Position numbers and translations under genes: made by a program | Origin: Tabrizicola thermarum | Lineage (GTDB): Bacteria > Pseudomonadota > Alphaproteobacteria > Rhodobacterales > Rhodobacteraceae | Direction: 5' to 3' | Length of the DNA stretch: 64,000 nucleotides | Assembly (NCBI RefSeq): GCF_003574395.1 | Contig: NZ_QMJY01000013.1 | Span: forward strand, 62,001 to 126,000 | Notes under the pieces: generated by a model | The model's input: the letters and a program-made list of their open reading frames with translations, nothing else | The model's database searches: none | What the model was told of the DNA's origin: nothing | Shown: positions 13,727 to 63,946 of the stretch, piece after piece | Layout of the letters: every line of letters begins with the position of its first letter | How positions within the stretch are numbered: position 1 is the stretch's first letter

Positions 13727-14830
13727 CTACCCGCCGATCCGCCGCCAGCGCGCGACCTCCAGCCCCGGCCCATTCCCCTCGGCCGCGAGGAGAGCATCCA
13801 GCTTCGCCCTCCCCGGCGTCCGCCGACAGACCGGGTCCGGGGCCGAGGCGTCGCCCAGCACCGCCAGCGCCTGGCAGCGGCACCCCCCGAAATCGACCTC
13901 CCGCCGGTCGCAGGACCGGCAGGGCTCCGGCATCCAATCCGTCCCCCGGAACGCCGCGAAGGCGGGCCCCCGATACCAGATTTCCGCCAGCGGCACGTCC
14001 CTCACATTTGCGAACCGCATCCCCGGGATCGTCTGTGCCGCGTGGCAGGGCAGCACCGCCCCGTCCGGCGCGATGTTGAGCCCCGTCGCCCCCCAGCCCC
14101 CCATGCAGGCCTTGGGCAGGTCGGCGTAGTAGTCGGGCGGGACGAAGTCGATCACCAGCCGTCCCTGCCGCGCGGCGCGGGCCTCGGCCACCAGTCGCTT
14201 CGCCTCATCCACCTGTGCCCGCGTCGGCTGGAGCACGGCCCGGTTCTCCAGGGCCCAGCCCTGGAACTGCACGCAGGCCACCTCCACCCGCCGCGCGCCC
14301 AACCGCTCGGCCAGGTCGAAGACCTCGGGCAATTCCGCCAGATTGTGCCGGTGCATCACCGCGTTCAGGGTCAGCGCCACCCCCGCCGCTGCGATGGCCT
14401 CGGCCACCGCCATCTTCCGCGCGAACCCGCCCTTGTAGCCGCCCACCCGATCCGCCGTCTCGGCGCGGGTCCCCTGCACCGACAGCTGCACATGGTCCAT
14501 TCCCGCCGCCACCAGCGCGGCGATCCGCTCGGGCGTCAGCCCGATGCCCGAGGTGATAAGGTTGGCATAAAGCCCCGCGTCCCGGGCCGCCGCAACGATC
14601 TCTTCCAGATCCCGGCGCGAGGCCGGCTCGCCCCCCGACAGATGCACCTGCAACACGCCCAAGGCCACGGCCTGTCGGAAGACATCCGCCCATTGCCCCG
14701 CCGTCAGCTCTGCCTCGCGGCGGGCCAGATCGACGGGGTTCGAGCAGTAGGGGCAGGAGAGCGGGCAGCGATGCGTCAGCTCGGCCAGCATCGCGATCGG
14801 CGGGGGAACGGGGCGGGAACCGTCAGGCAT
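13727..14830 (-). CDS. pqqE: PQQ biosynthesis radical SAM enzyme PqqE
   Basis: A 367-residue radical SAM protein that joins the Glu and Tyr side chains of the PqqA peptide, the first step of PQQ formation. The [4Fe-4S] motif CPLSCPYC is near residue 26-33, followed by HLSGGEPASR. The C-terminal SPASM region carries further cysteines (CHAAQ, CRSCDRREVDFGGCRCQA). The start at 14830 overlaps the end of pqqD by 8 bases; a slightly longer start at 14857 is possible but lies deeper in pqqD. It is the last gene of pqqABCDE. Confidence 0.95.
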   Translation of the reverse strand: MPDGSRPVPPPIAMLAELTHRCPLSCPYCSNPVDLARREAELTAGQWADVFRQAVALGVLQVHLSGGEPASRRDLEEIVAAARDAGLYANLITSGIGLTPERIAALVAAGMDHVQLSVQGTRAETADRVGGYKGGFARKMAVAEAIAAAGVALTLNAVMHRHNLAELPEVFDLAERLGARRVEVACVQFQGWALENRAVLQPTRAQVDEAKRLVAEARAARQGRLVIDFVPPDYYADLPKACMGGWGATGLNIAPDGAVLPCHAAQTIPGMRFANVRDVPLAEIWYRGPAFAAFRGTDWMPEPCRSCDRREVDFGGCRCQALAVLGDASAPDPVCRRTPGRAKLDALLAAEGNGPGLEVARWRRIGG

Positions 14831-15086
14831 GCAGGTCCACCAGCCGTTCGCGGGCAAGGCCCGTCAGGAACTCGGTCACATCCGGCCCGACCTCCTCGAC
14901 CGGGGCGGCGAAGTCGGCGGCCAGGCCCGAGACCAGCACATCCACCGGCGTCGTCCCGTCCACCCGGGACAGGATCGCATGGCCCACCTCGTCCAGCATC
15001 AGCACCCGTTCCGGCGCCAGAAGCACATGGCTGCCCCGCACCGCATCCCAGTGCAGCCGCACGCCGGGGGGCAGGACCGGGATCAC
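14823..15086 (-). CDS. pqqD: PQQ biosynthesis peptide chaperone PqqD
   Basis: An 87-residue RiPP recognition element. It holds the PqqA peptide and presents it to PqqE. The family pattern is clear: LPPGVRLHWDAVRGSHVLLAPERVL, then LDEVGHAILSRVDG, in the winged-helix fold. It overlaps both neighbours (pqqC by 4 bases, pqqE by 8), so synthesis of the three proteins is coupled. Confidence 0.95.
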   Translation of the reverse strand: MIPVLPPGVRLHWDAVRGSHVLLAPERVLMLDEVGHAILSRVDGTTPVDVLVSGLAADFAAPVEEVGPDVTEFLTGLARERLVDLHA

Positions 15087-15826
15087 AGCAGCCCCTCACC
15101 CGGCCGCCAGGCGCCGGGCGGGATGTGGCCGGGCTGGACATAGCCATGCCACAGAGCATCAAGCTGCGCCCAGAGGACCTCGGTCTTGAACACCAGCGCG
15201 GCGGCGGCGGCGTCCTGTTCCTCGGGCGTGCGGGCATGGTCCAGCACCCATTGCAGCCCGAAGGCCACATCCTTCGGCGCCTCGCCCAGGCGGTGGCGGA
15301 AATAGGCCAGCGTCTCGGGCGTGGCGAAGTCGTAGTGCTCCAGAAGGCCCGCGATCCGTTCGGCATGGATCTTCGGCGCGAAAAGCTCGGTCAGCGAGGA
15401 GGCCACGGCCTGCAACAGGGGCCGTTCGCGGACATAGTGGACATAGGCGTCCACCGCAAAGCGCGTCGCGGGCATCACGCCCACGCCAGAGGCCACATAG
15501 TCGGGATCCAACCCCACCGCCTCGGCCAGTTTCAGCCAGCGCCGGATGCCGCCGTCGCGGGTCTCTGTGCCGTCGTGATCCTCGATGCGCGAGCGCCAGG
15601 CGCGGCGCAGGTCGGGGTCCTCGACCCGGCTCATGAAGGCCGCGTCCTTCATCGGGATGCGGCTCTGGTAATACCAGCGGTTCACCACCCAGGCCCGGAC
15701 CTGATCGACCGACGCCTTGCCGCCGTGCAAGAGCTGATGGAACGGGTGGCGGTCGTGATAGCGTTCGTCGCCGATCCTGCGCAGCCGGGCCTCGAAGGCG
15801 CCCATCGGTTTGCCCATCTCGGTCAT
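15083..15826 (-). CDS. pqqC: Pyrroloquinoline-quinone synthase PqqC
   Basis: A 247-residue cofactorless oxidase that performs the last ring-closing and eight-electron oxidation step of PQQ synthesis. Typical segments are RYHDRHPFHQLLHGGK, VVNRWYYQSRIPMKDAAFMSR and RIEDHDGTE, which carry the His, Tyr, Lys and Arg residues of the active site. The ATG at 15826 is preferred because it forms an ATGA overlap with the pqqB stop. Confidence 0.96.
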   Translation of the reverse strand: MTEMGKPMGAFEARLRRIGDERYHDRHPFHQLLHGGKASVDQVRAWVVNRWYYQSRIPMKDAAFMSRVEDPDLRRAWRSRIEDHDGTETRDGGIRRWLKLAEAVGLDPDYVASGVGVMPATRFAVDAYVHYVRERPLLQAVASSLTELFAPKIHAERIAGLLEHYDFATPETLAYFRHRLGEAPKDVAFGLQWVLDHARTPEEQDAAAAALVFKTEVLWAQLDALWHGYVQPGHIPPGAWRPGEGLL

Positions 15827-16707
15827 GCCGTCACCTCCATCCCATCCTGTGCGACCTCCCATCCCGCTGCTTCGACTGCGGCCCGTTCGGGGCTGTCGGG
15901 GCGCAGGATCGGATTTGTGTTGTTGATGTGAATCAGGACCTTGCGTCCGATCCTTCTGCCCGCAAAGCGCTGGAGCGTGCCGTCCGGCGCCCCGATCGCC
16001 ACATGTCCCATCCGCGCGCCGGTCTTGGTGCCGACACCCTCGCGGATCATCTCGTCATCGGCAAATACCGTTCCGTCGAACAGCAGCACATCCGCTCCCT
16101 CGACCCGGTCGAGAAGCCAGTCGGGCAGCGCGGCACAGCCGGGGATGTAAAGGACGCGCCTGCCGTCCCCGGTGATCTCAAGCCCCACGGTCTGCCCTCC
16201 CATCCGGTGGCCGGCGCCCAGGGCCTCCTCCAGAAACAGCGCCACCTTGCCGGGGACGGCAAAGGGGGTGACGGTCAGGCCGGGCAGGGGCGAGAAGCCC
16301 TGATCCAGCGACATCTGCCGTCGCGCCACCACATCAGACAGGACCCCGAACACCGGGCTTGCCGCCAGCACCCCATGCGTCTCGGCGCTGGCCCAGAGGT
16401 CGAAGCCCGTCCCCTCGCGCAGCGACAACAGGCCCGCGATGTGGTCGACATCGGCATTCGTGACGACCACGGCCTTGACCGGACTGCCGCGCAATCCGGG
16501 CGGCGCAAAGCGCGCCGAGCAAAGCTGGGCGCGGATGTCGGGCGAGGCGTTCAGCACCACCCAGTCGGTGCCGTCCAATGAAACAGCCACGGACGATTGC
16601 GTCATCCGTGGCAGGTCGCCGGCGCGGGCCAGGGAGCAGTTCCGGCAGGCACAGTTCCATTGCGGCACCCCGCCGCCCGCAGCGGCGCCAAGTACCGTCA
16701 GGATCAT
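15823..16707 (-). CDS. pqqB: PQQ biosynthesis hydroxylase PqqB
   Basis: A 294-residue metallo-beta-lactamase-fold protein that hydroxylates the cross-linked Glu-Tyr intermediate in PQQ synthesis. The N-terminus has the family signature VLGAAAGGGVPQWNCAC with a cluster of cysteines (CACRNC), and TNADVDHIAGLLSLREG carries metal ligands. It lies 15 bases after pqqA and overlaps pqqC by 4 bases. Confidence 0.95.
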   Translation of the reverse strand: MILTVLGAAAGGGVPQWNCACRNCSLARAGDLPRMTQSSVAVSLDGTDWVVLNASPDIRAQLCSARFAPPGLRGSPVKAVVVTNADVDHIAGLLSLREGTGFDLWASAETHGVLAASPVFGVLSDVVARRQMSLDQGFSPLPGLTVTPFAVPGKVALFLEEALGAGHRMGGQTVGLEITGDGRRVLYIPGCAALPDWLLDRVEGADVLLFDGTVFADDEMIREGVGTKTGARMGHVAIGAPDGTLQRFAGRRIGRKVLIHINNTNPILRPDSPERAAVEAAGWEVAQDGMEVTA

Positions 16708-16815: not shown

Positions 16816-16892
16816 CTTGGGTCCTCCTCCATCTGATGCCAGCGAGTAAGCCATGATTCTGCCCTCCGGCCTATGCGACCTTGGTTGGGGGG

Positions 16893-17441
16893 TCAGTAAA
16901 GCCGACCTTCGTATTTCCAGTTGTCGGCGTCGGGCGTCACCTCGTCGAGGTCATAGCCCGCCGCCTGTAGGCGCTGTGCGACAGGCAGCCCCGCCTCGGC
17001 CGCCCGGTCCACCAGGGCGCGGCCGGCTGCCTCGTCAGCGGAAACGCCCCGGCCGCGCATCAGGTCAAGCCCGTAGTTGAACATGCCCACCGGGTCGCCC
17101 GCCTCGGCGGCCATCCGGTCCCAGTGCGCCGCACGGGCGGGATCCTCCTCCGCTGCGCCCAGCCCGTTGTCGTCCAGCTGCGCCATCCAGGTCATCGCCC
17201 CGGTCCAGCCATCGCGGGCACAGGCCTCGAAGACGTCGCGGGCATGATCGTGATCGCCCTTCTTGGTGATCCCGTACCCGGCGGCGCAGGCCATCATGCT
17301 GGTCTCGCCCCGAGCCACGTCGTCCAGGATGCGGGCGATGGTCATTTCCTCGGGGTTGAGCGTGCCGAACTCCTCTGCCCCGCCGGGCGTTTCCGCGAAG
17401 GCAGGCAAGGTCGTCAGGATCAACAGCAGGATCGCGCGCAT
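16893..17441 (-). CDS. Secreted Sel1-repeat protein upstream of pqqA
   Basis: A 182-residue protein with a signal peptide (MRAILLLILTTLPAFAE, cleavage after AFA). The body has two or three Sel1-like helical repeats, for example ARDVFEACARDGWTGAMTWM and AAHWDRMAAEAGDPVGMFNYG. Sel1 repeats are protein-binding scaffolds, so a periplasmic partner is likely. It precedes pqqA in the same direction and is likely the first gene of the PQQ transcript; a link with XoxF maturation or cytochrome delivery is possible but only inferred. The start at 17441 is chosen for the signal peptide. Confidence 0.8.
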   Translation of the reverse strand: MRAILLLILTTLPAFAETPGGAEEFGTLNPEEMTIARILDDVARGETSMMACAAGYGITKKGDHDHARDVFEACARDGWTGAMTWMAQLDDNGLGAAEEDPARAAHWDRMAAEAGDPVGMFNYGLDLMRGRGVSADEAAGRALVDRAAEAGLPVAQRLQAAGYDLDEVTPDADNWKYEGRLY

Positions 17442-17504
17442 TCCTTGAACCCCGGCAATATCGTGCAAGCCTAGGGAACATCTGGTACCGGTCCAGCCCC
17501 CGCG

Positions 17505-17520
17505 TGGTCGTATACGACCA
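17505..17520. promoter_or_regulatory. Perfect palindrome TGGTCGTATACGACCA, candidate operator
   Basis: A 16-base perfect inverted repeat in the 194-base gap between the divergent Sel1-pqqABCDE and SGNH genes, 64 bases before the former and 115 before the latter. Its half TACGACCAT recurs upstream of the cytochrome c gene (56192, 56215) and xoxF (56855). A dimeric regulator with a symmetric site is expected; the LuxR-type regulator at 58879-59568 is the best local candidate. Confidence 0.7.
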
Positions 17521-17635: not shown

Positions 17636-18538
17636 ATGCCTGATCTTCTTGACCGGCGCGCGGTCCTTGGCGGCCTCGCCTGCCTTCCTCTGGCGACGAC
17701 CCCTGCGGCCCTGCGGGCGGAGACCGGCAAGGAGCGGACCTTCAACCTGCGGGTCGTGATGTCGGGGCACAGCCTGACCGATCCCCTGCCGCATCCGCTC
17801 TCGATCCTGGTGCAGGCGGCAGGTGGGCCCAAATCGCGCGGCATGGTGATCGACCGCTCGACGATCCCGGGCAGCACGGCGAAACTGCGGTGGATCAACG
17901 ATATGAACCTTCCGGTCTATGCCCGCCGTGACATTGCCCGCTATGACGTGCTGGTTCTGACCGAACGGGTGCCGGTGCGCTCGGCAATCGAATGGGAGGA
18001 GTCGGTCGACTACACGCAGAAGTGGTTCGATCACGCCTGGAGCAAGGGCAAGGGCGGCAAGGGGGCGGAAACGATCTACTACGCCTCCTGGGTCGACATC
18101 CGCAGCGGGCCGGGCAACACCGACGAGTATGACATGCCGGACGAACGGCTGATCCCCCTGCGCGAGAGGCTGGACCTTGAAATGGGGGCGTGGCAGCAGG
18201 TGGCGGATCAGGTGAACGCCCACCGCGCCAAGGGCAGCCCGCGGATGCGGGTGATCCCGGGGCCGAAGATCATGGCAGCGGTCCTCGATGCCATTTCGGC
18301 GGGCACCGCGCCGGGGCTGACGCGGATCAAGGACCTGTTCGAGGACACCATCCACCCCAACGCCAAGGGCGCCTACCTCATGGCGGTGGCGCATTACGCG
18401 GTGATCTACGGCCGCGACCCCCGCACCCTGCCCAACCTGCGGGGCGAGCCGGGCTGGCCTTCCGCGAAACAGGCCGACTGGATGAAGGAACTGGTCTGGG
18501 ACGTGCTGCGGTCCTACCCGGACAGCGGCCTCACTTAG
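17636..18538 (+). CDS. Exported SGNH-hydrolase-like protein, divergent from the PQQ operon
   Basis: A 300-residue protein with a possible Tat signal ([23 protein letters not shown]). An SGNH-type catalytic plan is suggested by the nucleophile block [10 protein letters not shown] near residue 43 and by [13 protein letters not shown] near the C-terminus, which has the Asp and His spaced as in block V. It may act on an ester or an acetyl group in the periplasm. It shares the intergenic region and palindrome with the Sel1-pqq transcript, which suggests a link to alcohol oxidation. The start at 17636 is chosen for the signal. Its last 4 bases overlap convergent gshB. Confidence 0.65.
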
Positions 18539-56190: not shown

Positions 56191-56224
56191 CTACGACCAT
56201 AAACCCCCGGTTTCTACGACCATA
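56191..56224. promoter_or_regulatory. Two direct repeats CTACGACCATA upstream of cytochrome c
   Basis: CTACGACCATA occurs at 56191-56201 and again at 56214-56224, 23 bases apart. The core TACGACCAT is the half-site of the palindrome at 17505-17520 and recurs at 56855. The 23-base spacing is about two helical turns, so two dimers or tetramers could bind the same face. Located 91-124 bases before the cytochrome start. Confidence 0.65.
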
Positions 56225-56237
56225 GGGTGGTCCGCGC

Positions 56238-56251
56238 TTGACGCAAGTCAA
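56238..56251. promoter_or_regulatory. TTGACGCAAGTCAA, Crp/Fnr (FnrL-type) box
   Basis: A perfect TTGAC-4-GTCAA dyad 64-77 bases before the cytochrome c start. It matches the TTGAC-N4-GTCAA form used by FnrL/NNR-type regulators in Rhodobacter and Paracoccus. It implies oxygen- or nitric-oxide-dependent control of the cytochrome. Confidence 0.65.
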
Positions 56252-56314: not shown

Positions 56315-56722
56315 ATGCTCCGTTTCATCGCCCATCCGCTTGCCGTCGCCCTGACGATCCTGTCGCTGTCACCGGTGGCCGCTACGGCGGACGAGGCCGG
56401 GTCGTTCGGCCAGATCAAGATCGGTGCCGGCAAGGCCCTGTTCGAGGCCGAATGTCGCCGTTGCCACGCCACCGATGCCAGCGACCCAAGCTATGGCCCG
56501 CCGCTGGAGGGCGTCTTCGGCCGCAGGGCGGGAACCTTTGCGGGCTACCCCTATTCGGAGGCGTTGAAAACAGCCGGCTTTGTCTGGACTGCGGGCGCGT
56601 TGAAGGCCTGGATGGCGGACAATGACGGTTTTGTCCCGGGAACCAAGATGCGGCATGTGGGCATCGAGGATGCGACAGTGCAGGACTTCATCCTCGAATA
56701 TCTGAAGTCGATCTCGGGCTGA
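56315..56722 (+). CDS. Class I cytochrome c, probable electron acceptor for XoxF
   Basis: A 135-residue periplasmic cytochrome. The signal (LRFIAHPLAVALTILSLSPVAATA) is followed by one haem site, CRRCH (Cys47, Cys50, His51), and a C-terminal KMRHVG with Met112 as the likely sixth ligand. It resembles cytochrome c2/c550 and lies 248 bases before xoxF, the usual place of XoxG-like electron acceptors. The assignment as XoxG is contextual. Confidence 0.9.
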   Translation: MLRFIAHPLAVALTILSLSPVAATADEAGSFGQIKIGAGKALFEAECRRCHATDASDPSYGPPLEGVFGRRAGTFAGYPYSEALKTAGFVWTAGALKAWMADNDGFVPGTKMRHVGIEDATVQDFILEYLKSISG

Positions 56723-56970: not shown

Positions 56971-58734
56971 ATGAACCGTTTTGTCGCTGCCGTCTCGGCG
57001 GCCCTGTTGCTTGCTGCCCCGGCCTATGCGGGGATCACCGAAGAGGACCTGGCGGGGGATGCGGCCTCGACCGGGGACGTGCTGACCAACGGCATGGGGC
57101 GCGATCTTCAGCGTTACAGCCCGCTGGCCACGATCAACAAGGACAACGTCGGCAAGATGGTCCCGGTCTGGGCCTTCTCCTTGGGCGGCGAGAAGCAGCG
57201 CGGGCAGGAGACCCAGCCCTTGATCCATGACGGGGTGATGTACATCACCGGGTCCTACAGCCGCCTCTATGCCATCGATGTGAAGACCGGGAAGGAGCTG
57301 TGGCAATACGACGCCCGCCTGCCCGAGGGCATCCTGCCCTGCTGCGACGTCATCAACCGGGGCGCGGCGCTGTACGGCGACAACATCTATTTCGGCACGC
57401 TGGACGCGCGTATCGTGGCGTTGAACGCCAAGACCGGAGATGTGGTCTGGAACAAGAAGATCGCGGAATACAAGGAAGGCTACAGCTACACCGCCGCGCC
57501 GCTGATCGTGAACGGGCTGGTCATCACCGGCAATTCGGGCGGCGAGTTCGGGATCGTGGGCGAAGTGCAGGCCCGCGATGCCGAGACCGGCGAGCTGGTG
57601 TGGACACGCCCGACCATCGAGGGCCACATGGGCACCTACATGGGCAAGGAAAGCACCATGACGGGGACGCTGAACGCCTCGTGGCCCGGCGATCTGTGGA
57701 AGACCGGCGGCGGGGCGACCTGGCTGGGCGGGTCCTATGACATCGAGACCAACACCATCGTCTTCGGCGCGGGCAACCCCGCGCCCTGGAACAGCTGGCT
57801 GCGCGATGCGGGGCAGAAGAACGACGGCACGGGCGACAACCTGTATGCCGCCTCGCGGCTGGGGCTGGACCCGGCGACGGGCGAGATCAAGTGGCACTAC
57901 CAGACCACGCCGCGCGAGGGCTGGGACTATGACGGGGTGAACGAGGTCGTCGCCTTCACCGACAAGGACGGCAAGAAGAAGTTCGCCACCGCCGACCGCA
58001 ACGGGTTCTTCTATGTGCTGAACCGCGAGGACGGGAAGTTCCTGAACGCCTGGCCCTTCGTGAAGGACATCACCTGGGCCAGCGGCATCGACGAGAACGG
58101 TCGGCCGATCTACAACGAGGCGAACCGTCCGGGGAACCCTGCCGCCGCGGCAGACGGGGCGAAGGGCGAGGTGATCTTCGCCTCGCCGTCGTTCCTGGGC
58201 GGCAAGAACTGGATGCCGATGGCCTACAGCCAGCGGACGGGGCTGTTCTATGTGCCCTCGAACGAATGGGGCATGGACATCTGGAACGAGCCGATCACCT
58301 ACAAGAAGGGCGCGGCCTATCTGGGCGCGGGGTTTACCATCAAGCCGAACTACGAGGACCACATCGGCAGCCTGAAGGCGATCGACCCGATGACCGGCGA
58401 GTGGAAGTGGGAATACAAGAACCCCGCACCGCTCTGGGGCGGGGTGATGACCACGGCCGGCGGGCTGGTGTTCTTCGGCACCCCCGAGGGCGAGTTCAAG
58501 GCGCTGGACGACGAGACGGGCAAGGAGCTGTTCAGCTTCCAGACCGGATCGGGAATCGTGGGCCAGCCCGTCACCTGGGAGATGGACGGCGAGCAGTATG
58601 TGGCCGTGGTCTCGGGCTGGGGCGGTGCCGTGCCTCTGTGGGGCGGCGAGGTGGCCAGCAAGGTCAACTATCTGAACCAGGGCGGCATGGTCTGGGTGTT
58701 CAAGCTGCCCAAGGAACTGGCGATGGCGAACTGA
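56971..58734 (+). CDS. xoxF: Lanthanide-dependent PQQ methanol dehydrogenase XoxF
   Basis: A 587-residue periplasmic PQQ quinoprotein with an eight-bladed propeller. The signal is cleaved after AYA20. The vicinal disulfide Cys124-Cys125 (ILPCCDV) stacks over PQQ. Metal ligands are Glu192 (GGEFG), Asn269 (GNPAPWNSW) and catalytic Asp319 in GWDYDGVN. The extra Asp321 (WDYD) marks lanthanide-dependent enzymes; calcium MxaF has Ala there. It oxidises methanol and passes electrons to a cytochrome c, probably the one upstream. A strong hairpin follows it. Confidence 0.96.
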
Positions 58735-58878: not shown

Positions 58879-59568
58879 ATGGTTCCACAGGCTGACCTCC
58901 GCCCGATGCATTCGGCCCTGATCGTGGACGACCATCCGCTGTTCTGCGACGCGCTGTCGATGACGCTGAAGTCGGTCGCGGGGATCGAGGAGATCGAGAC
59001 GGCGGACCGGCTGGAGACGGCGATCCACCGCGTCGATCTGAGCCCGGCGCCGGATGCCATCGTGCTGGACCTGAACCTTCCGGACGTCAACGGGATCGAC
59101 GGGTTGATCCGGTTGCGGCAGGCGGCGGGCGAGGTGCCGGTGCTGGTGGTGTCCTCGCTGGCGGACAACCGGGTGATCGGGGCCTGTCTTGCGGCAGGGG
59201 CGGCGGGCTTCGTGCCGAAACATTCCCGGCGCGAAGTCTTTCGTGCGGCCTTTGATGCCCTGCGCGAAGGCAGGCGTTTCCTTCCCGAAGGCTATGAGCC
59301 GGTGCCGGAGGGCAAGGCCAAGGGCTCGGCGAAGGAAGAGGCCATCGGGCGGCTGTCGCTGCTGACGCGGCAGCAGGCGAAGATATTGCAACTTATCTGC
59401 GAGGGGCTTCTGAACAAGCAGATCGCCTATGAGCTGTCGATCGCCGAGACCACGGTGAAGGCCCATGTCACCGCGATCATGCGCAAGCTGGGGGTTCAGA
59501 GCCGGACACAGGCGGTGCTGATCGCGCGCGAGACCAATTTCTCCAGCCTGATGCCCGAGGACGGCTGA
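58879..59568 (+). CDS. LuxR-type (NarL/FixJ) response regulator, probable methanol-gene activator
   Basis: A 229-residue regulator. The receiver has DDHPLF near residue 17-22 and phosphoacceptor Asp64 in IVLDLNLPD; the conserved Lys is in GFVPKHS. The C-terminal HTH is LTRQQAKILQLICEGLLNKQIAYELSIAETTVKAHV. It resembles FlhR of Paracoccus and AgmR/ErbR of Pseudomonas, which activate alcohol dehydrogenase genes. It is followed by a FIST protein and a hybrid kinase, which make up its likely signalling partners. The start at 58879 (ATG) is used; a TTG at 58870 is possible. Confidence 0.9.
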   Translation: MVPQADLRPMHSALIVDDHPLFCDALSMTLKSVAGIEEIETADRLETAIHRVDLSPAPDAIVLDLNLPDVNGIDGLIRLRQAAGEVPVLVVSSLADNRVIGACLAAGAAGFVPKHSRREVFRAAFDALREGRRFLPEGYEPVPEGKAKGSAKEEAIGRLSLLTRQQAKILQLICEGLLNKQIAYELSIAETTVKAHVTAIMRKLGVQSRTQAVLIARETNFSSLMPEDG

Positions 59569-59635: not shown

Positions 59636-60799
59636 ATGATCGCGCCCGACAGCTTGGCCCCTGCCGATGCCGCTTCGGTGATGCCGCGCGCCCATGCCGG
59701 GGCGCGTGACCCGGACGCCCTGGCAAAGATTGCCCGCGACCTGGGACCCGGGCCCTTCGCGGCGGTGATCCTGTTCGTCTCGCCCGAAGCCGACCGCGCC
59801 GCGCTGGAGGCCGGGCTGCCGCTGGCCTTTCCGGGAGTGACGGTGATCGGCTGCACCACGGCGGGGGAAATCTCGCCCGAGGGCTATTGCGAAGGCGAGA
59901 TCGTCGCGGTCGCCCTGCCCCGCTCATGCTTTGCGGTCGACTGTCTTGGGATCGACCTGACCGCGCTGGACGGGCAGGAATTGATCGGAAGGCTGATCCG
60001 GGCGCGGGCCGGTCTTGCGCGGGCGCATCCCGGCTGGGAGGACGAGTTCGCCTTCGTTCTGGTGGACGGCTTGTCGATCCGCGAGGACGAGTTGACGGCC
60101 GCTCTGGGGCCGGGTCTCGGGCCGGTGCAGCTTTTTGGCGGCTCGGCCGGGGACGGGACGCGGTTCGCCGAGACCTATGTCCTGCAGGACCGGCAGTTCC
60201 GGCAAGGCTGGGCCGTGCTGATGCTGGTGCGCACGGCCTGCAAGGTGCGGGTCTTCAGCCTGAACCACCTGACCCCGACAAACCGGCGCATGGTTGTGAC
60301 CGGGGCCGATCCGGCGCGGCGCATCGTGCATCAGATCAACGCCGAACCGGCGGCGCAGGAATATGCCCGCCTTCTGGGCAAGGACCCCGCGCAACTGACC
60401 ACCTTCACCTTCGCCGCCCATCCCGTTGTCGTGCGGATCGGCGGCAGCCACCACGTCCGCGCGATCCAGCAGATGGCCGACAACGGCGATCTGGTGTTCT
60501 TCTCGGCCATCGACGAGGGGCTGGTCCTGACCCTGGCCGAGCCGCAGGACATGGCCCTGCACCTGGACCGCGCGCTGTCCGACCTGTCGGCAGAGCGCAA
60601 ACCGGCGGCGATCCTGGCTTGCGACTGCATCCTGCGGCGGATCGAGGCGATGGAGAACCAACGCTTCGGCGCGGTGTCAAACCTGCTGAAGCGGCACGGT
60701 GTCGTGGGCTTTTCCACCTATGGTGAGCAGTTGAACTCGATGCATGTCAACCAGACGATGACCGGGGTGGCGATCTACCCGCCGAAGGCAGGGTCATGA
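59636..60799 (+). CDS. FIST-domain signal-sensing protein
   Basis: A 387-residue cytosolic protein with FIST-N (residues about 25-230; VTVIGCTTAGEISPEGYCEGEIVAVAL is the family signature) and FIST-C (about 240-375). FIST proteins are thought to sense small ligands and act with histidine kinases. It starts 67 bases after the regulator, with GGGAGAAGG before the ATG, and is 10 bases from the kinase gene. A FIST gene also neighbours ErcS'/NahK in Pseudomonas aeruginosa. Confidence 0.88.
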   Translation: MIAPDSLAPADAASVMPRAHAGARDPDALAKIARDLGPGPFAAVILFVSPEADRAALEAGLPLAFPGVTVIGCTTAGEISPEGYCEGEIVAVALPRSCFAVDCLGIDLTALDGQELIGRLIRARAGLARAHPGWEDEFAFVLVDGLSIREDELTAALGPGLGPVQLFGGSAGDGTRFAETYVLQDRQFRQGWAVLMLVRTACKVRVFSLNHLTPTNRRMVVTGADPARRIVHQINAEPAAQEYARLLGKDPAQLTTFTFAAHPVVVRIGGSHHVRAIQQMADNGDLVFFSAIDEGLVLTLAEPQDMALHLDRALSDLSAERKPAAILACDCILRRIEAMENQRFGAVSNLLKRHGVVGFSTYGEQLNSMHVNQTMTGVAIYPPKAGS

Positions 60800-60809
60800 G
60801 GGCGGGCGC

Positions 60810-63005
60810 ATGATCGAGACGCTGATCAACCCGGCCGACAGCGCCGAGCGGCGGGCGGAAAAGCTGCTTACCATCGCCGAGGCGCTGATGCGGCGGGTCG
60901 AACAGGCGACGGATGACAGCGGCGCGGCCTACGCCCAGTTCCAGCGCGCCGCGCTGCTGGAGGATCAGGTCCGCGAGCGCACGCATGATCTGGGCCGGGC
61001 GCTGGACCTGTTGAACGATTCGAACGCTCGGCTGGCCGAGGCGATGCGCGAGGCGGAAACCGCGCGGCAGAACCTGTCGAACGCCATCGAGACGGTGCAG
61101 GAGGGCTTTGCGCTTTTCGACCGCGAGGATCGGCTGGTGATGTGCAACAGCCGGTTCGCCATGCACATGCCGGATGTCCATGCCCGGTTGCAGCCCGGGC
61201 TGGCCTTTGCAGAGTATGTGGCGATGGTCAGCCTCTCGCCGCATCTGGCGCTGCCCGATGGCGAGGCTGCGCAGGATTGGGCGCAGTCCCGGATGCGGCG
61301 GCACAAGGACCGGCATGTCATCTTCAACGTGCGGATGACCGGCGACCACTGGGTGCAGGTCAGCGAGCATCGCACGGCGGACGGCGGCACGGTGATCCTT
61401 CAGACCGACGTGACCGACATCATCCGCGCCGAGCGGCACGAGCGCGGCAAGCTTCTGGACGATCAGGCGCGGGTGATCCGGGCGACGCTGGACCATATCA
61501 ACCAGGGCGTTGGCATCTTCGACGCCGAAGCGCGGCTGATCGGCTGGAATCAGCGGCTTGGGGCGCTTCTGTCGCTGCCGATGGGGCGGCTGCGCATCGG
61601 GGCGAGCTTCGAGAACCTGTTCAGCAGGTTCCGGGCCGAGATGCAGTCCGACGACATCAGCGTCGAGGCGCTGATGGCCTGGGTCACGGCGGGGGGCGTG
61701 CGACCGCCCCTGGAGTTCGAGGTGCGGCGCGGCGAGGACCTGATCCTGGACGTCTTTGCGCAAGGGATGCCCGACGGGGGCTTCGTGTTCAGTTTCACCG
61801 ATGTCACGGCAGAGCGTGCCGCGCTGGTGGCGCTGAGCCGGGCGAACGAGACGCTGGAAGCCCGGGTGATGGAGCGGACGCTGGAGCTGGAGGACGCGCT
61901 GGCCCATGCCGAACGCGCCAATGCCAGCCGGTCGCGCTTTGTGGCGGCGGCGAGCCATGACCTGTTGCAACCCCTGTCGGCGGCGAAGCTGTTCATCTCC
62001 TCGATCAGCGGCGAGGGGCTGGAGCCGGGGGCGCGGGTCGCGCTGGAGAAGGCGCAGAATGCGCTGATGTCGGTGGAGGGCATCCTGGATGCTCTTCTGG
62101 ACATCTCGAAGCTGGAATCGGGGAAGGCGGCGGTCAGCGTGGGGGCGGTGCAGCTGAACCGTCTGCTGCGGACCCTGTCCGAGGAATTCGCGCCGATGGC
62201 AGCGGCCAAGGGGCTGAAGCTGGTGGTGGTCCCCTGCGGCGCGGTGGTCGAAAGCGACCCGGCCTATCTGCGGCGCATCCTGCAGAACCTGATCGGCAAC
62301 GCAATCCGCTATACCGCGAAGGGCCGGGTGCTGGTGGGGGCGCGCAGGCGCGGCGCGGCGGTGCGGCTGGAGGTCTGGGATACGGGGCCGGGTATCCCGG
62401 AAGAGGCGCAGAACGACATCTTCAAGGAGTTCCACCGGCTGAACGCCCGCGCTTCGGCCAGCGAGGGGATGGGGCTGGGGCTGGCGATCGTGGAGCGGGC
62501 CTGCGCGCTGCTGGGGCATCCCCTGGGCCTGCGGTCCGAGGTGGGGCGCGGGACCTGCTTCATGCTGCAGCTGCCCCTGTCCGAGGCGGGCGAGGGTCTG
62601 CCGCTGCCGGTGGAAGTGCCCGAGCGGCGCAGCGGCCCGGTGGCGGCGGAGAAGATCGCGTTTCTGGTGGAGAACGACGCCGAATTGCTGCGGGCGCTGA
62701 GCCTGTTGCTGGAGAAATGGGGGATGACGGTGCTGGAGGCGGCTTCGGGCGAGGAGGCACTGGCGCTGATCGAGGAGATCGGCATCCTGCCGGATATCTT
62801 CCTGGTGGATCACCAGCTGGGTGCGGGGATGACGGGGATCGAGTTCCTGATCCGCATCCGCGCGGCACATGGGCCGGTGCCCGCCAAGCTTATCACCGCG
62901 CACCGGGGCTGGGACCTGCGGGCGGCCGCGACCTCGGCGGGGATCGAGGTGCTGTACAAGCCCATCGACCCCCGCGCGCTGGAGGCGGTGGTGGCGCGGC
63001 TTTGA
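60810..63005 (+). CDS. Soluble hybrid histidine kinase with PAS domains and C-terminal receiver
   Basis: A 731-residue kinase with no membrane helix. Domains in order: coiled coil (residues 45-95), two PAS-like domains (about 95-205 and 225-335), a second coiled coil, HisKA with the phosphohistidine His383 in FVAAASHDLLQPL, HATPase (N-box NLIGNAIRY, G1 DTGPGI, G2 GMGLGLAIV) and a receiver with Asp667 in FLVDHQL and Lys717. It resembles NahK/ErcS' of Pseudomonas and FlhS-like kinases in methylotrophs. It most likely phosphorylates or dephosphorylates the LuxR-type regulator upstream. Confidence 0.9.
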   Translation: MIETLINPADSAERRAEKLLTIAEALMRRVEQATDDSGAAYAQFQRAALLEDQVRERTHDLGRALDLLNDSNARLAEAMREAETARQNLSNAIETVQEGFALFDREDRLVMCNSRFAMHMPDVHARLQPGLAFAEYVAMVSLSPHLALPDGEAAQDWAQSRMRRHKDRHVIFNVRMTGDHWVQVSEHRTADGGTVILQTDVTDIIRAERHERGKLLDDQARVIRATLDHINQGVGIFDAEARLIGWNQRLGALLSLPMGRLRIGASFENLFSRFRAEMQSDDISVEALMAWVTAGGVRPPLEFEVRRGEDLILDVFAQGMPDGGFVFSFTDVTAERAALVALSRANETLEARVMERTLELEDALAHAERANASRSRFVAAASHDLLQPLSAAKLFISSISGEGLEPGARVALEKAQNALMSVEGILDALLDISKLESGKAAVSVGAVQLNRLLRTLSEEFAPMAAAKGLKLVVVPCGAVVESDPAYLRRILQNLIGNAIRYTAKGRVLVGARRRGAAVRLEVWDTGPGIPEEAQNDIFKEFHRLNARASASEGMGLGLAIVERACALLGHPLGLRSEVGRGTCFMLQLPLSEAGEGLPLPVEVPERRSGPVAAEKIAFLVENDAELLRALSLLLEKWGMTVLEAASGEEALALIEEIGILPDIFLVDHQLGAGMTGIEFLIRIRAAHGPVPAKLITAHRGWDLRAAATSAGIEVLYKPIDPRALEAVVARL

Positions 63006-63073: not shown

Positions 63074-63946
63074 TCAGCCCTTACTGCGGGTGAAGCCGCG
63101 GGCAGGGTCGTAGCCGTACAGCGCCGCGGCGGCGAAGGCGGCAGTGGCAAGGCAGGTCCAGCCTAAGGCGGGCCAGTTCGGCGCAAGGTAGAGCGAGAAG
63201 CGGATCAGTTCGACCGCCTGGGTGAAGGGGTTGATCGCACAGGCCTTTGCGAGGGCGGGGCTCGCTTCGGCCATCTTCCACAGCGGGTAGAGCGCGGAGG
63301 AGAGGAAGAACATCGGGAAGATCACGAAGTTCATCACCCCGGCGAAGTTTTCCAGCTGGCGGATGAGCGAGGAGAGGAGGAGGCCGAGCGCTCCCAGCAT
63401 CAGGCCGGTCAGCAGGAGAGCGGGGATCACTGCGATCAGGCCCATCAGCGGCGGACGGATGCCCCAGGCGTAGCCGATGGCCAGGAATACCGCGCATTGC
63501 AGCAGGCTGATGAGCGTGCCAGCGAGGAGTTTCGCGAACAGAAGCCAGCCGCGCGGCAAGGGCGCCGTCAGGAGGAGCCGCATCGAGCCCATCTCGCGGT
63601 CATAGACGAGGGAGAGCGAGGACTGCATGCCGTTGAAGAGGCAGATCATGCCGAGCAGGCCGGGGAGGATGTAGGTCTCGTAGGTGATGTAGGTCTGATA
63701 GGGCGGCGTGATCGACAGGCCAAGCGCGGCGCGAAAGCCTGCGGCGAAGACGAGAAGCCAGACGAGCGGGCGGACGAGGGCGGCGATGAGGCGGCTTTTC
63801 TGGCCGAGGAAACGCGAGAGTTCGCGGTGGAGGATGGCTTTCAGCGCGATGAGGTAGCGCCCCTTGGCAGGCCCCGGGGGGCGTGCGCCGCCCCCCGGCC
63901 CCCCCTGCGGGATATTTGTGGACAGATGAAAGGGATCGGGAGTCAT
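63074..63946 (-). CDS. ABC-2 exporter permease, PedC-like (PQQ alcohol-dehydrogenase cluster type)
   Basis: A 290-residue permease with six membrane helices of the ABC-2 type. The segment LPGLLGMICLFNGMQSSLSLVYDREMGSMRLLLTAPLPRG and the C-terminal MNFVIFPMFFLSSALYPLW are typical of this family. Permeases of this subfamily travel with PQQ-dependent alcohol dehydrogenases; the substrate is unproven. The first 30 residues (HLSTNIPQGGPGGG, ARPPGPAKG) are encoded by a repeat-like hairpin, so they are probably not an old part of the protein, yet no other start codon precedes the conserved region. The start overlaps the upstream ABC ATPase in ATGA. Confidence 0.85.
   Translation of the reverse strand: MTPDPFHLSTNIPQGGPGGGARPPGPAKGRYLIALKAILHRELSRFLGQKSRLIAALVRPLVWLLVFAAGFRAALGLSITPPYQTYITYETYILPGLLGMICLFNGMQSSLSLVYDREMGSMRLLLTAPLPRGWLLFAKLLAGTLISLLQCAVFLAIGYAWGIRPPLMGLIAVIPALLLTGLMLGALGLLLSSLIRQLENFAGVMNFVIFPMFFLSSALYPLWKMAEASPALAKACAINPFTQAVELIRFSLYLAPNWPALGWTCLATAAFAAAALYGYDPARGFTRSKG
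63874..63937. repeat. Hairpin plus GGATATTT element inside the PedC-like gene start
   Basis: Perfect 10-bp arms CCGGGGGGCG (63874-63883) and CGCCCCCCGG (63889-63898) are followed by C-rich bases and then GGGATATTTGTGGACAGATG and AAAG. From memory, this hairpin plus GGATATTT-AGATGA pattern recurs in intergenic DNA of Rhodobacteraceae. Here it lies inside a coding region. Confidence 0.5.

Follow-up and report, generated by a model that had tools for sequence, protein, structure and literature searches.

A TACGACC heptamer, doubled head to head before Sel1-pqqABCDE in Tabrizicola thermarum, as a candidate regulator site of a XoxF regulon

In the ped cluster of Pseudomonas, nosP, pedS1 (nahK) and agmR lie near pedC, pedB, pedA2 and pedA1, which together encode a lanthanide transporter, and AgmR activates both ped and pqq genes (available text of PMC12997753). 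The ACTU motif of CrbR/ErdR is an imperfect inverted repeat such as TACTACCATCGTCGAAT, found at -52 to -36 of acs (excerpt of PMC5715377), and FlhRS controls C1 genes in Paracoccus denitrificans (excerpt of PMC8879981). Our literature search, with most subscription papers outside its scope, returned the ACTU motif and sites of EmaR and RpuR, and none for AgmR, xoxF or pqq promoters. The NarL 7-2-7 operator is built from two tail-to-tail heptamers, TACYYMT, that are 2 bp apart and have TAC outermost. Here, we analyse a 64,000-nucleotide stretch of the T. thermarum genome (NZ_QMJY01000013.1, positions 62,001 to 126,000, forward strand; hereafter the window) and in particular a 16-bp palindrome, TGGTCGTATACGACCA, between a Sel1-like gene that heads the pqqABCDE genes for pyrroloquinoline quinone (PQQ) synthesis and a divergent SGNH-like gene. 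A preliminary description of the window had proposed this palindrome as the operator of a methanol regulon. We find it quite probable that the regulator of the Sel1-pqqABCDE promoter binds at the palindrome, and that the regulon couples XoxF, cytochromes, PQQ synthesis and a PedA1A2BC-type transporter.

The palindrome and its heptamer in the Tabrizicola genome

The palindrome is perfect, as first described, and consists of two TACGACC heptamers placed head to head with no gap (Table 1). Its extended half, the nonamer TACGACCAT, matches the window at exactly four positions, all on the + strand: 17513, 56192, 56215 and 56855. These are the copy at the palindrome, two sites before the cytochrome c gene and one before xoxF, just as had been noted by eye, and the earlier impression that the window holds no further copy is right for the exact nonamer. 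Across 100 dinucleotide shuffles of the window, the mean was 0.14 copies and the maximum 2. Genome-wide, there are 12 matches. Seven fall within open reading frames (ORFs), whose translations read as TetR-, YbeY-, NarH-, HemN-, ROK- and AlaS-like proteins and a hydrolase, and five lie between called genes. Four of the five are the copies at Sel1/SGNH, cytochrome c (two) and xoxF; the fifth, C8:129442, lies just past the window between divergent pedA1-like and pedF genes (gene calls make it intergenic; a cruder ORF list had put it inside an over-extended ORF). Since C8:129442 lies outside the sequence on which the motif was defined, it is a fair test of that motif, and it extends the regulon beyond the genes first listed to pedF/pedA1. 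A looser pattern, TACGACCWNNG, shows no genome-wide excess over its reversed control (34 matches vs 124); 4 of the 30 matches examined among the 34 are intergenic, and three of these belong to the regulon.

The full palindrome has a much narrower distribution. It is single-copy in the whole genome with up to 2 mismatches allowed, and a three-mismatch copy lies at 58919-58934, within the regulator gene discussed below. A full-length Sel1 orthologue occurs in 4 of 32 genus genomes, with pqqB next in all four; three carry the exact palindrome and the fourth reads TGGTCGTGTACGACCA. Across these four promoters, 21 of the 22 positions of GGAAAATGGTCGTATACGACCA are invariant, compared with 21-28% identity in the 43 bp upstream, so that conservation covers both arms but not the flanks; TANNNT recurs at offset 39 toward Sel1 in every one of the four. 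As a general operator the palindrome was rejected: the exact sequence is present only in this and one other of 295 family genomes, plus the genus genome G297. In what was searched, it is a genus-level head-to-head doubling of the TACGACC heptamer. The proposal of a shared operator stands for the heptamer, the constant part, but not for the palindrome as its general form.

The region had also been described as a divergent promoter. On the Sel1-pqq side this is borne out by a -10-like hexamer at 39 bp, but in the window no -10 stands at this distance on the SGNH side. Three of the four genus genomes, this one included, have an SGNH homologue upstream of Sel1; as the main target, the SGNH gene is unsupported by the -10 spacing. 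The palindrome most likely activates Sel1-pqqABCDE.

Conservation and promoter architecture across XoxF loci

We then turned to other genomes. A XoxF scan yielded at least 80 loci, mostly Rhodobacterales by title, which underlie all counts out of 80 below. Their flanks reach 10 kb or the contig end, so absence of a gene from a locus does not mean absence from the genome. In 60 of the 80 loci, TACGACC occurs in coding-strand orientation no more than 220 bp from xoxF, at 96-143 bp from the start codon; with either strand counted, the figure is 66. The logo of these promoters reads GG.CT-TACGACC-AWTGT[GC]CAATWYC, in which the heptamer is invariant by selection because only heptamer-bearing sites were used. 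Seven of the 14 xoxF promoters without the exact heptamer (L018, L049, L065, L070, L073, L074 and L084) hold a mismatched site scoring above 8.5, the best shuffled score.

Over the 80 loci (165,929 bp intergenic, 1,429,169 bp coding), TACGACC has 180 intergenic and 125 coding copies and is 12.4-fold denser per base in intergenic DNA. For TACGACCA the counts are 125 and 23 (46.8-fold), and for TACGACCAT 55 and 8 (59-fold), so the nonamer is indeed commoner in intergenic than in coding DNA. Among 200 letter permutations of the heptamer, the median intergenic/coding ratio was 1.07 and the highest 10.9; none exceeded TACGACC. These numbers bear on the idea that chance alone produced the recurrence, the word having been picked by eye from promoters under view. 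It was indeed chosen after the promoters had been seen, and 7 of its 12 genomic copies lie in genes; the fifth promoter copy at pedF/pedA1, unseen when the word was chosen, the conservation before xoxF in 60 of 80 loci and the far greater intergenic density contradict this idea and leave it extremely improbable.

If each of the 180 intergenic sites is credited to the closest gene downstream, up to 500 bp away, the totals are xoxF (61), cytochrome c (36), Sel1 (28, all confirmed by blastp), pedF (12), the regulator gene (6), pedA1 (1) and other genes (15), with 21 assigned to none. Counted by locus, xoxF has an assigned heptamer in 59, and among the loci that hold the gene the figures are 32/42 for cytochrome c, 27/54 for Sel1, 12/58 for pedF and 6/51 for the regulator. 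Conservation of the site in orthologous promoters, which had been put forward as a check, is thus evident at xoxF and Sel1. It is thinner at pqq promoters: upstream of pqqB, at the expected place of pqqA, the exact heptamer is present in 4 of 28 non-own orthologous loci, one or two of the 28 being incomplete there. A scan of pedF promoters across the phylum found exact TACGACC in 2 of 30 loci (our genome and L195). The small Sel1-repeat-like protein often accompanies XoxF, being encoded in 54 of the 80 loci, with the heptamer at half of its genes.

The Sel1 sites also help to weigh a different reading, in which the palindrome serves another regulator as operator, for instance a GntR-type repressor, and the likeness of the two TACGACC halves to xoxF sites is fortuitous. 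A GTATAC centre is a motif of the GntR-type family, the perfect palindrome was found only within the genus, and no inverted partner lies 2 bp from it. However, the one genus promoter of the four with a GTGTAC centre keeps both TACGACC and TANNNT at +39. Moreover, in 27 loci of other genera, Sel1 sits no more than 10 kb from xoxF and has the heptamer, mostly with a -10 at 39, and the palindrome is absent from the sites displayed. Since these sites carry the heptamer without the palindrome, the heptamer looks like the older, constant part, and we regard an unrelated operator as quite unlikely. The site appears to travel with Sel1, and we infer that within the genus Sel1 has moved to the head of the pqq operon.

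Spacing to the -10 box provides a second line of evidence, with the mean per offset across offsets 22-79 taken as background. At Sel1 sites, TANNNT occurs at offset 39 in 18 of 28 (background 0.45), and at xoxF sites at least 4 of 6 TATAAT positions are matched at the same offset in 33 of 61 (background 1.36). At the regulator genes, TANNNT lies at 39-41 in all 6; no fixed-distance -10 was seen at cytochrome c and pedF sites. The short, fixed distance from site to -10 expected of a class II activator promoter is seen at xoxF, Sel1 and regulator genes. A -10 at offset 39 means that the site spans roughly -51 to -36, where the CrbR motif also lies on acs.

A partner heptamer is a more variable feature. 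Pairings were counted with T[AG]CGACC in all arrangements and a threshold of at least 11 matches of 14. The tail-to-tail arrangement with a 2-bp gap occurs in 10 of 28 regions upstream of pqqB (a set that includes our genome and one genus relative) against 1.7 in shuffled sequence, with other arrangements reaching at most 7. In the xoxF set it occurs in 34 of 80 against 2.7 shuffled; direct pairings there also reach 32, at two spacings. Given a heptamer, the inverted partner at pedF averages 4.83 matches of 7, compared with 2.06 when shuffled. The inverted pair TRCGACC-N2-GGTCGYA may thus be the full form of the heptamer at some promoters. At 17505-17520 the 7-2-7 geometry is lacking: no 7-2-7 score reaches 10 and no inverted partner stands 2 bp off. 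A uniform 7-2-7 operator across the regulon is accordingly weakened as a candidate, with the partner clear only at pedF and pqqA. Because partner strength varies by promoter, the common core is one heptamer. Within the 64-kb window, a score of at least 11/14 in the inverted-pair scan is reached at 10 places, among them a site before pqqA, whose start we place at about 16815 by reading of the sequence. The xoxF-trained matrix gives mixed scores on pqq promoters. Elsewhere, TACGACCTTAGTGCAAAT at L178 (G000:C70:85646) fits the xoxF consensus well; it stands 37 bp ahead of a called gene start, presumably that of an Mrp/ApbC-like gene, and this is too near for the usual promoter spacing.

The candidate regulator and its proposed action

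The regulator had been proposed to be the LuxR-type protein encoded after xoxF. Seven LuxR-type helix-turn-helix (HTH) proteins score above cut-off in the genome, and from their translations, read without a domain search, only this one combines a receiver with the HTH, which agrees with the proposal; its start, however, is most likely at 58906 and not at 58879. A genome search with this protein found no other match that fully reaches its HTH end. The gene adjoins NosP-like and NahK/ErcS'-like genes, names that we qualify because both proteins fall below curated cut-offs. Homologues of the three occur in 51 of the 80 XoxF loci, and in 45 loci the regulator gene follows xoxF at a distance of no more than about 500 bp.

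Five genomes of another class each contain two close relatives of the regulator, about equal in identity and well ahead of the rest: 38-39% for a putative AgmR copy and 41-42% for a putative ErdR copy, the former labelled by nearby ped genes or kinase and the latter by elimination. The IAETTVKAHV stretch of our regulator is identical in the putative AgmR copy and different in the putative ErdR copy. A kinase like that of the window adjoins the putative AgmR copy in 4 of the 5 genomes and the putative ErdR copy in 1.

Several observations weigh against one regulator acting through one site. The exact heptamer is missing at xoxF in 14 of 80 loci (either strand), at Sel1 in 27 of 54, at pedF in 46 of 58 and upstream of pqqB in 24 of 28. 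The Sel1/SGNH region lacks an inverted partner heptamer, a partner 2 bp away is not favoured at Sel1, cytochrome c or the regulator gene, and at xoxF it is favoured only slightly (3.25/7, with 3.07 for the best direct partner and 2.04 shuffled). Outside the heptamer, our genome's other sites fit the xoxF matrix poorly, with -12.9 bits for Sel1, -11.9 and 4.6 for cytochrome c and 1.6 for pedF, and the -10 of the window's own xoxF is weak (CAAAGT). The regulator, NosP-like and kinase proteins are all below NCBIfam cut-offs; against the ErdR model (NF041830) the regulator scores 155 bits, below the cut-off of 390. In the window the regulator gene has no site before it, and autoregulation was set aside: the heptamer precedes the regulator gene in 6 loci, this one not among them. 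Finally, the xoxF site is present in 41 of 51 loci with the regulator and in 19 of 29 without it, so that presence of the regulator in a locus hardly predicts the site, L062 and L075 aside. In those two loci the regulators are the most diverged, the recognition helix is altered (GETTVKAHVSE) and the xoxF promoters are without TACGACC.

The 29 xoxF loci with no regulator homologue in their flanks, 19 of which keep the site, would also be accounted for if the site were real and were bound in trans by another response regulator, for example one of FlhR type, given the role of FlhRS in P. denitrificans. Yet no other protein with a receiver and a LuxR-type HTH was seen in this genome, genes missing from these flanks may lie elsewhere, and FlhR, known here by description, could itself be an orthologue of the 58906-59568 protein. 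We therefore judge control by a different regulator in trans to be unlikely.

The conservation of one word before enzyme, cofactor and electron-carrier genes argues that one regulator switches them on together, most likely through class II activation by an AgmR-like protein. The kinase (60810-63005) would phosphorylate this response regulator, and the NosP-like protein would perhaps modulate the kinase. The regulator would then bind TACGACC, with an inverted partner 2 bp away at some promoters, and from about -51 to -36 at xoxF and Sel1-pqq would recruit RNA polymerase to promoters that have a -10 box but lack any obvious -35 element. In the genus, the Sel1-pqq promoter carries two strong heptamers. 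The one nearer the -10 box stands at the usual spacing from it, and the other may bring in a further dimer or serve the divergent SGNH gene. That the regulator binds, that it is phosphorylated, that it activates and does not repress, and what induces it are all inferred.

At the cytochrome c promoters, an inverted repeat that we take to be an FNR/DNR-like box (TTGACGCAAGTCAA in the window) follows the site in 30 of 32 loci, compared with 0 of 89 xoxF and Sel1 sites, which suggests a second redox or nitric-oxide input there. A more elaborate scheme would have one NarL-family regulator use two heptamer geometries, tail-to-tail with one of the halves strong at pedF, pqqA and perhaps xoxF and gapless head-to-head at Sel1-pqq/SGNH, while NosP-NahK-like partners make lanthanide-dependent methanol oxidation, PQQ supply and metal uptake all respond to haem or nitric oxide as the signal and the FNR/DNR-like box adds the second redox input; we offer this scheme tentatively and consider it doubtful as a whole.

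For XoxF-type methanol oxidation in Rhodobacterales, the results supply a site and a regulator that can be put to the test, and part of the regulon can be read from sequence as TACGACC with a -10 at 39 bp. Cofactor, enzyme, electron carriers and probable lanthanide uptake would be tied to one switch, a Sel1-like protein is indicated as a regulon member, and at this locus the gene of the target enzyme has NosP-like, NahK-like and regulator genes as neighbours, which makes it a useful setting for their study.

Among the remaining genes, the xoxF product is presumably of the lanthanide type, by its DYD motif. Past the window, the contig continues with pedB-, pedA2- and pedA1-like genes, a divergent pedF and a CO-dehydrogenase-like enzyme. 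At L014 (7221-11465), genes for a CoxG-like protein and a CO-dehydrogenase-like molybdenum enzyme lie behind pedF; together they could encode an aldehyde oxidase that belongs to this pathway.

Table 1. Sites and genes of the window
Feature	Position	Strand	Remark
pqqE	13727..14857	-	TIGR02109, above cut-off
pqqD	14823..15086	-	TIGR03859, above cut-off
pqqC	15083..15826	-	TIGR02111, above cut-off
pqqB	15823..16707	-	TIGR02108, above cut-off
Weaker inverted-pair site TGCGACC-TT-GGTTGGG before pqqA	16874..16889	.	11/14 positions
Sel1-repeat-like protein, first gene of the Sel1-pqq unit	16893..17441	-	Sel1 26.8 bits, just below the 30.7 cut-off
-10-like hexamer TAGGCT, Sel1-pqq promoter	17468..17473	-	TANNNT at the same spacing in 4/4 genus promoters
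Perfect palindrome, two TACGACC heptamers head to head, gap 0	17505..17520	.	footprint in four genus genomes
TACGACC heptamer facing Sel1-pqq	17506..17512	-	-10-like TAGGCT starts 39 bp after its first base
TACGACC heptamer facing the SGNH gene	17513..17519	+	hexamer at +39 is GAAGGA, not -10-like
SGNH-like protein (label of the preliminary description)	17636..18538	+	no Pfam or NCBIfam match
Nonamer, cytochrome c upstream site	56192..56200	+	
Nonamer, second cytochrome c site	56215..56223	+	23 bp on from the first
Inverted repeat after the cytochrome c sites, presumed FNR/DNR-like box	56238..56251	.	
c-type cytochrome	56315..56722	+	Cyt550-like, below cut-off
xoxF site TACGACC-AT-TGGCCAA	56855..56870	+	24.2 bits; best of 300 shuffles 8.5
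xoxF, PQQ methanol dehydrogenase	56971..58734	+	TIGR03075
NarL/LuxR-type response regulator, AgmR/ErdR-like, proposed regulator	58906..59568	+	Response_reg and GerE above cut-offs
NosP-like FIST protein	59636..60799	+	374 bits, cut-off 450
NahK/ErcS'-like hybrid histidine kinase	60810..63005	+	near_NosP_CTERM 355.8, cut-off 400
pedC-like ABC (ATP-binding cassette) permease, lanthanide-transporter-type operon	63074..63946	-	TIGR03861, above cut-off

Comparison with described systems

In the five other-class genomes, sites resembling TACTACC-N2-GGNAGTA are seen at pedF, pedA1 and PQQ-dehydrogenase promoters (L216-L239). The pattern TACTACCWWGGNAGTA shows no excess over control in these genomes except in G508. 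Of the 25 loci examined, 9 lie at pedF, pedA1 or PQQ-dehydrogenase genes, a count in which the five pedF matches are circular because the pattern was derived from them. The heptamer is TACTACC at pedF in these genomes, unlike the TACGACC seen here.

Like the NarL 7-2-7 operator, the sites at pedF and pqqA clearly have tail-to-tail heptamers with a 2-bp gap. They differ in the heptamer itself, TACGACC, and in the second heptamer, which is weak at xoxF and undetectable before cytochrome c and Sel1; the pair at 17505 is, moreover, head to head. The motif also resembles the ACTU site: the pedF site of our genome, TACGACCATCGTCGCA, differs at 2 of the first 16 bases from the example TACTACCATCGTCGAAT given in the excerpt of PMC5715377. 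CrbR/ErdR acts on acs and actP with the transporter-kinase CrbS, whereas in our genome a NahK-like kinase goes with PQQ genes as targets. The locus also recalls FlhRS of P. denitrificans, a two-component system that controls methanol and formaldehyde genes, a likeness drawn from its description in the excerpt of PMC8879981.

Another close parallel is the AgmR/ErbR (PedR1) regulon of Pseudomonas. As in the available account of that regulon (PMC12997753), an alcohol dehydrogenase, pedF, pedA1A2BC and pqq genes come together, and the LuxR-type regulator is encoded beside nosP and nahK. Unlike in Pseudomonas, the enzyme here is XoxF and not PedE/PedH, the regulator gene follows directly after xoxF, and a Sel1 gene has been added.
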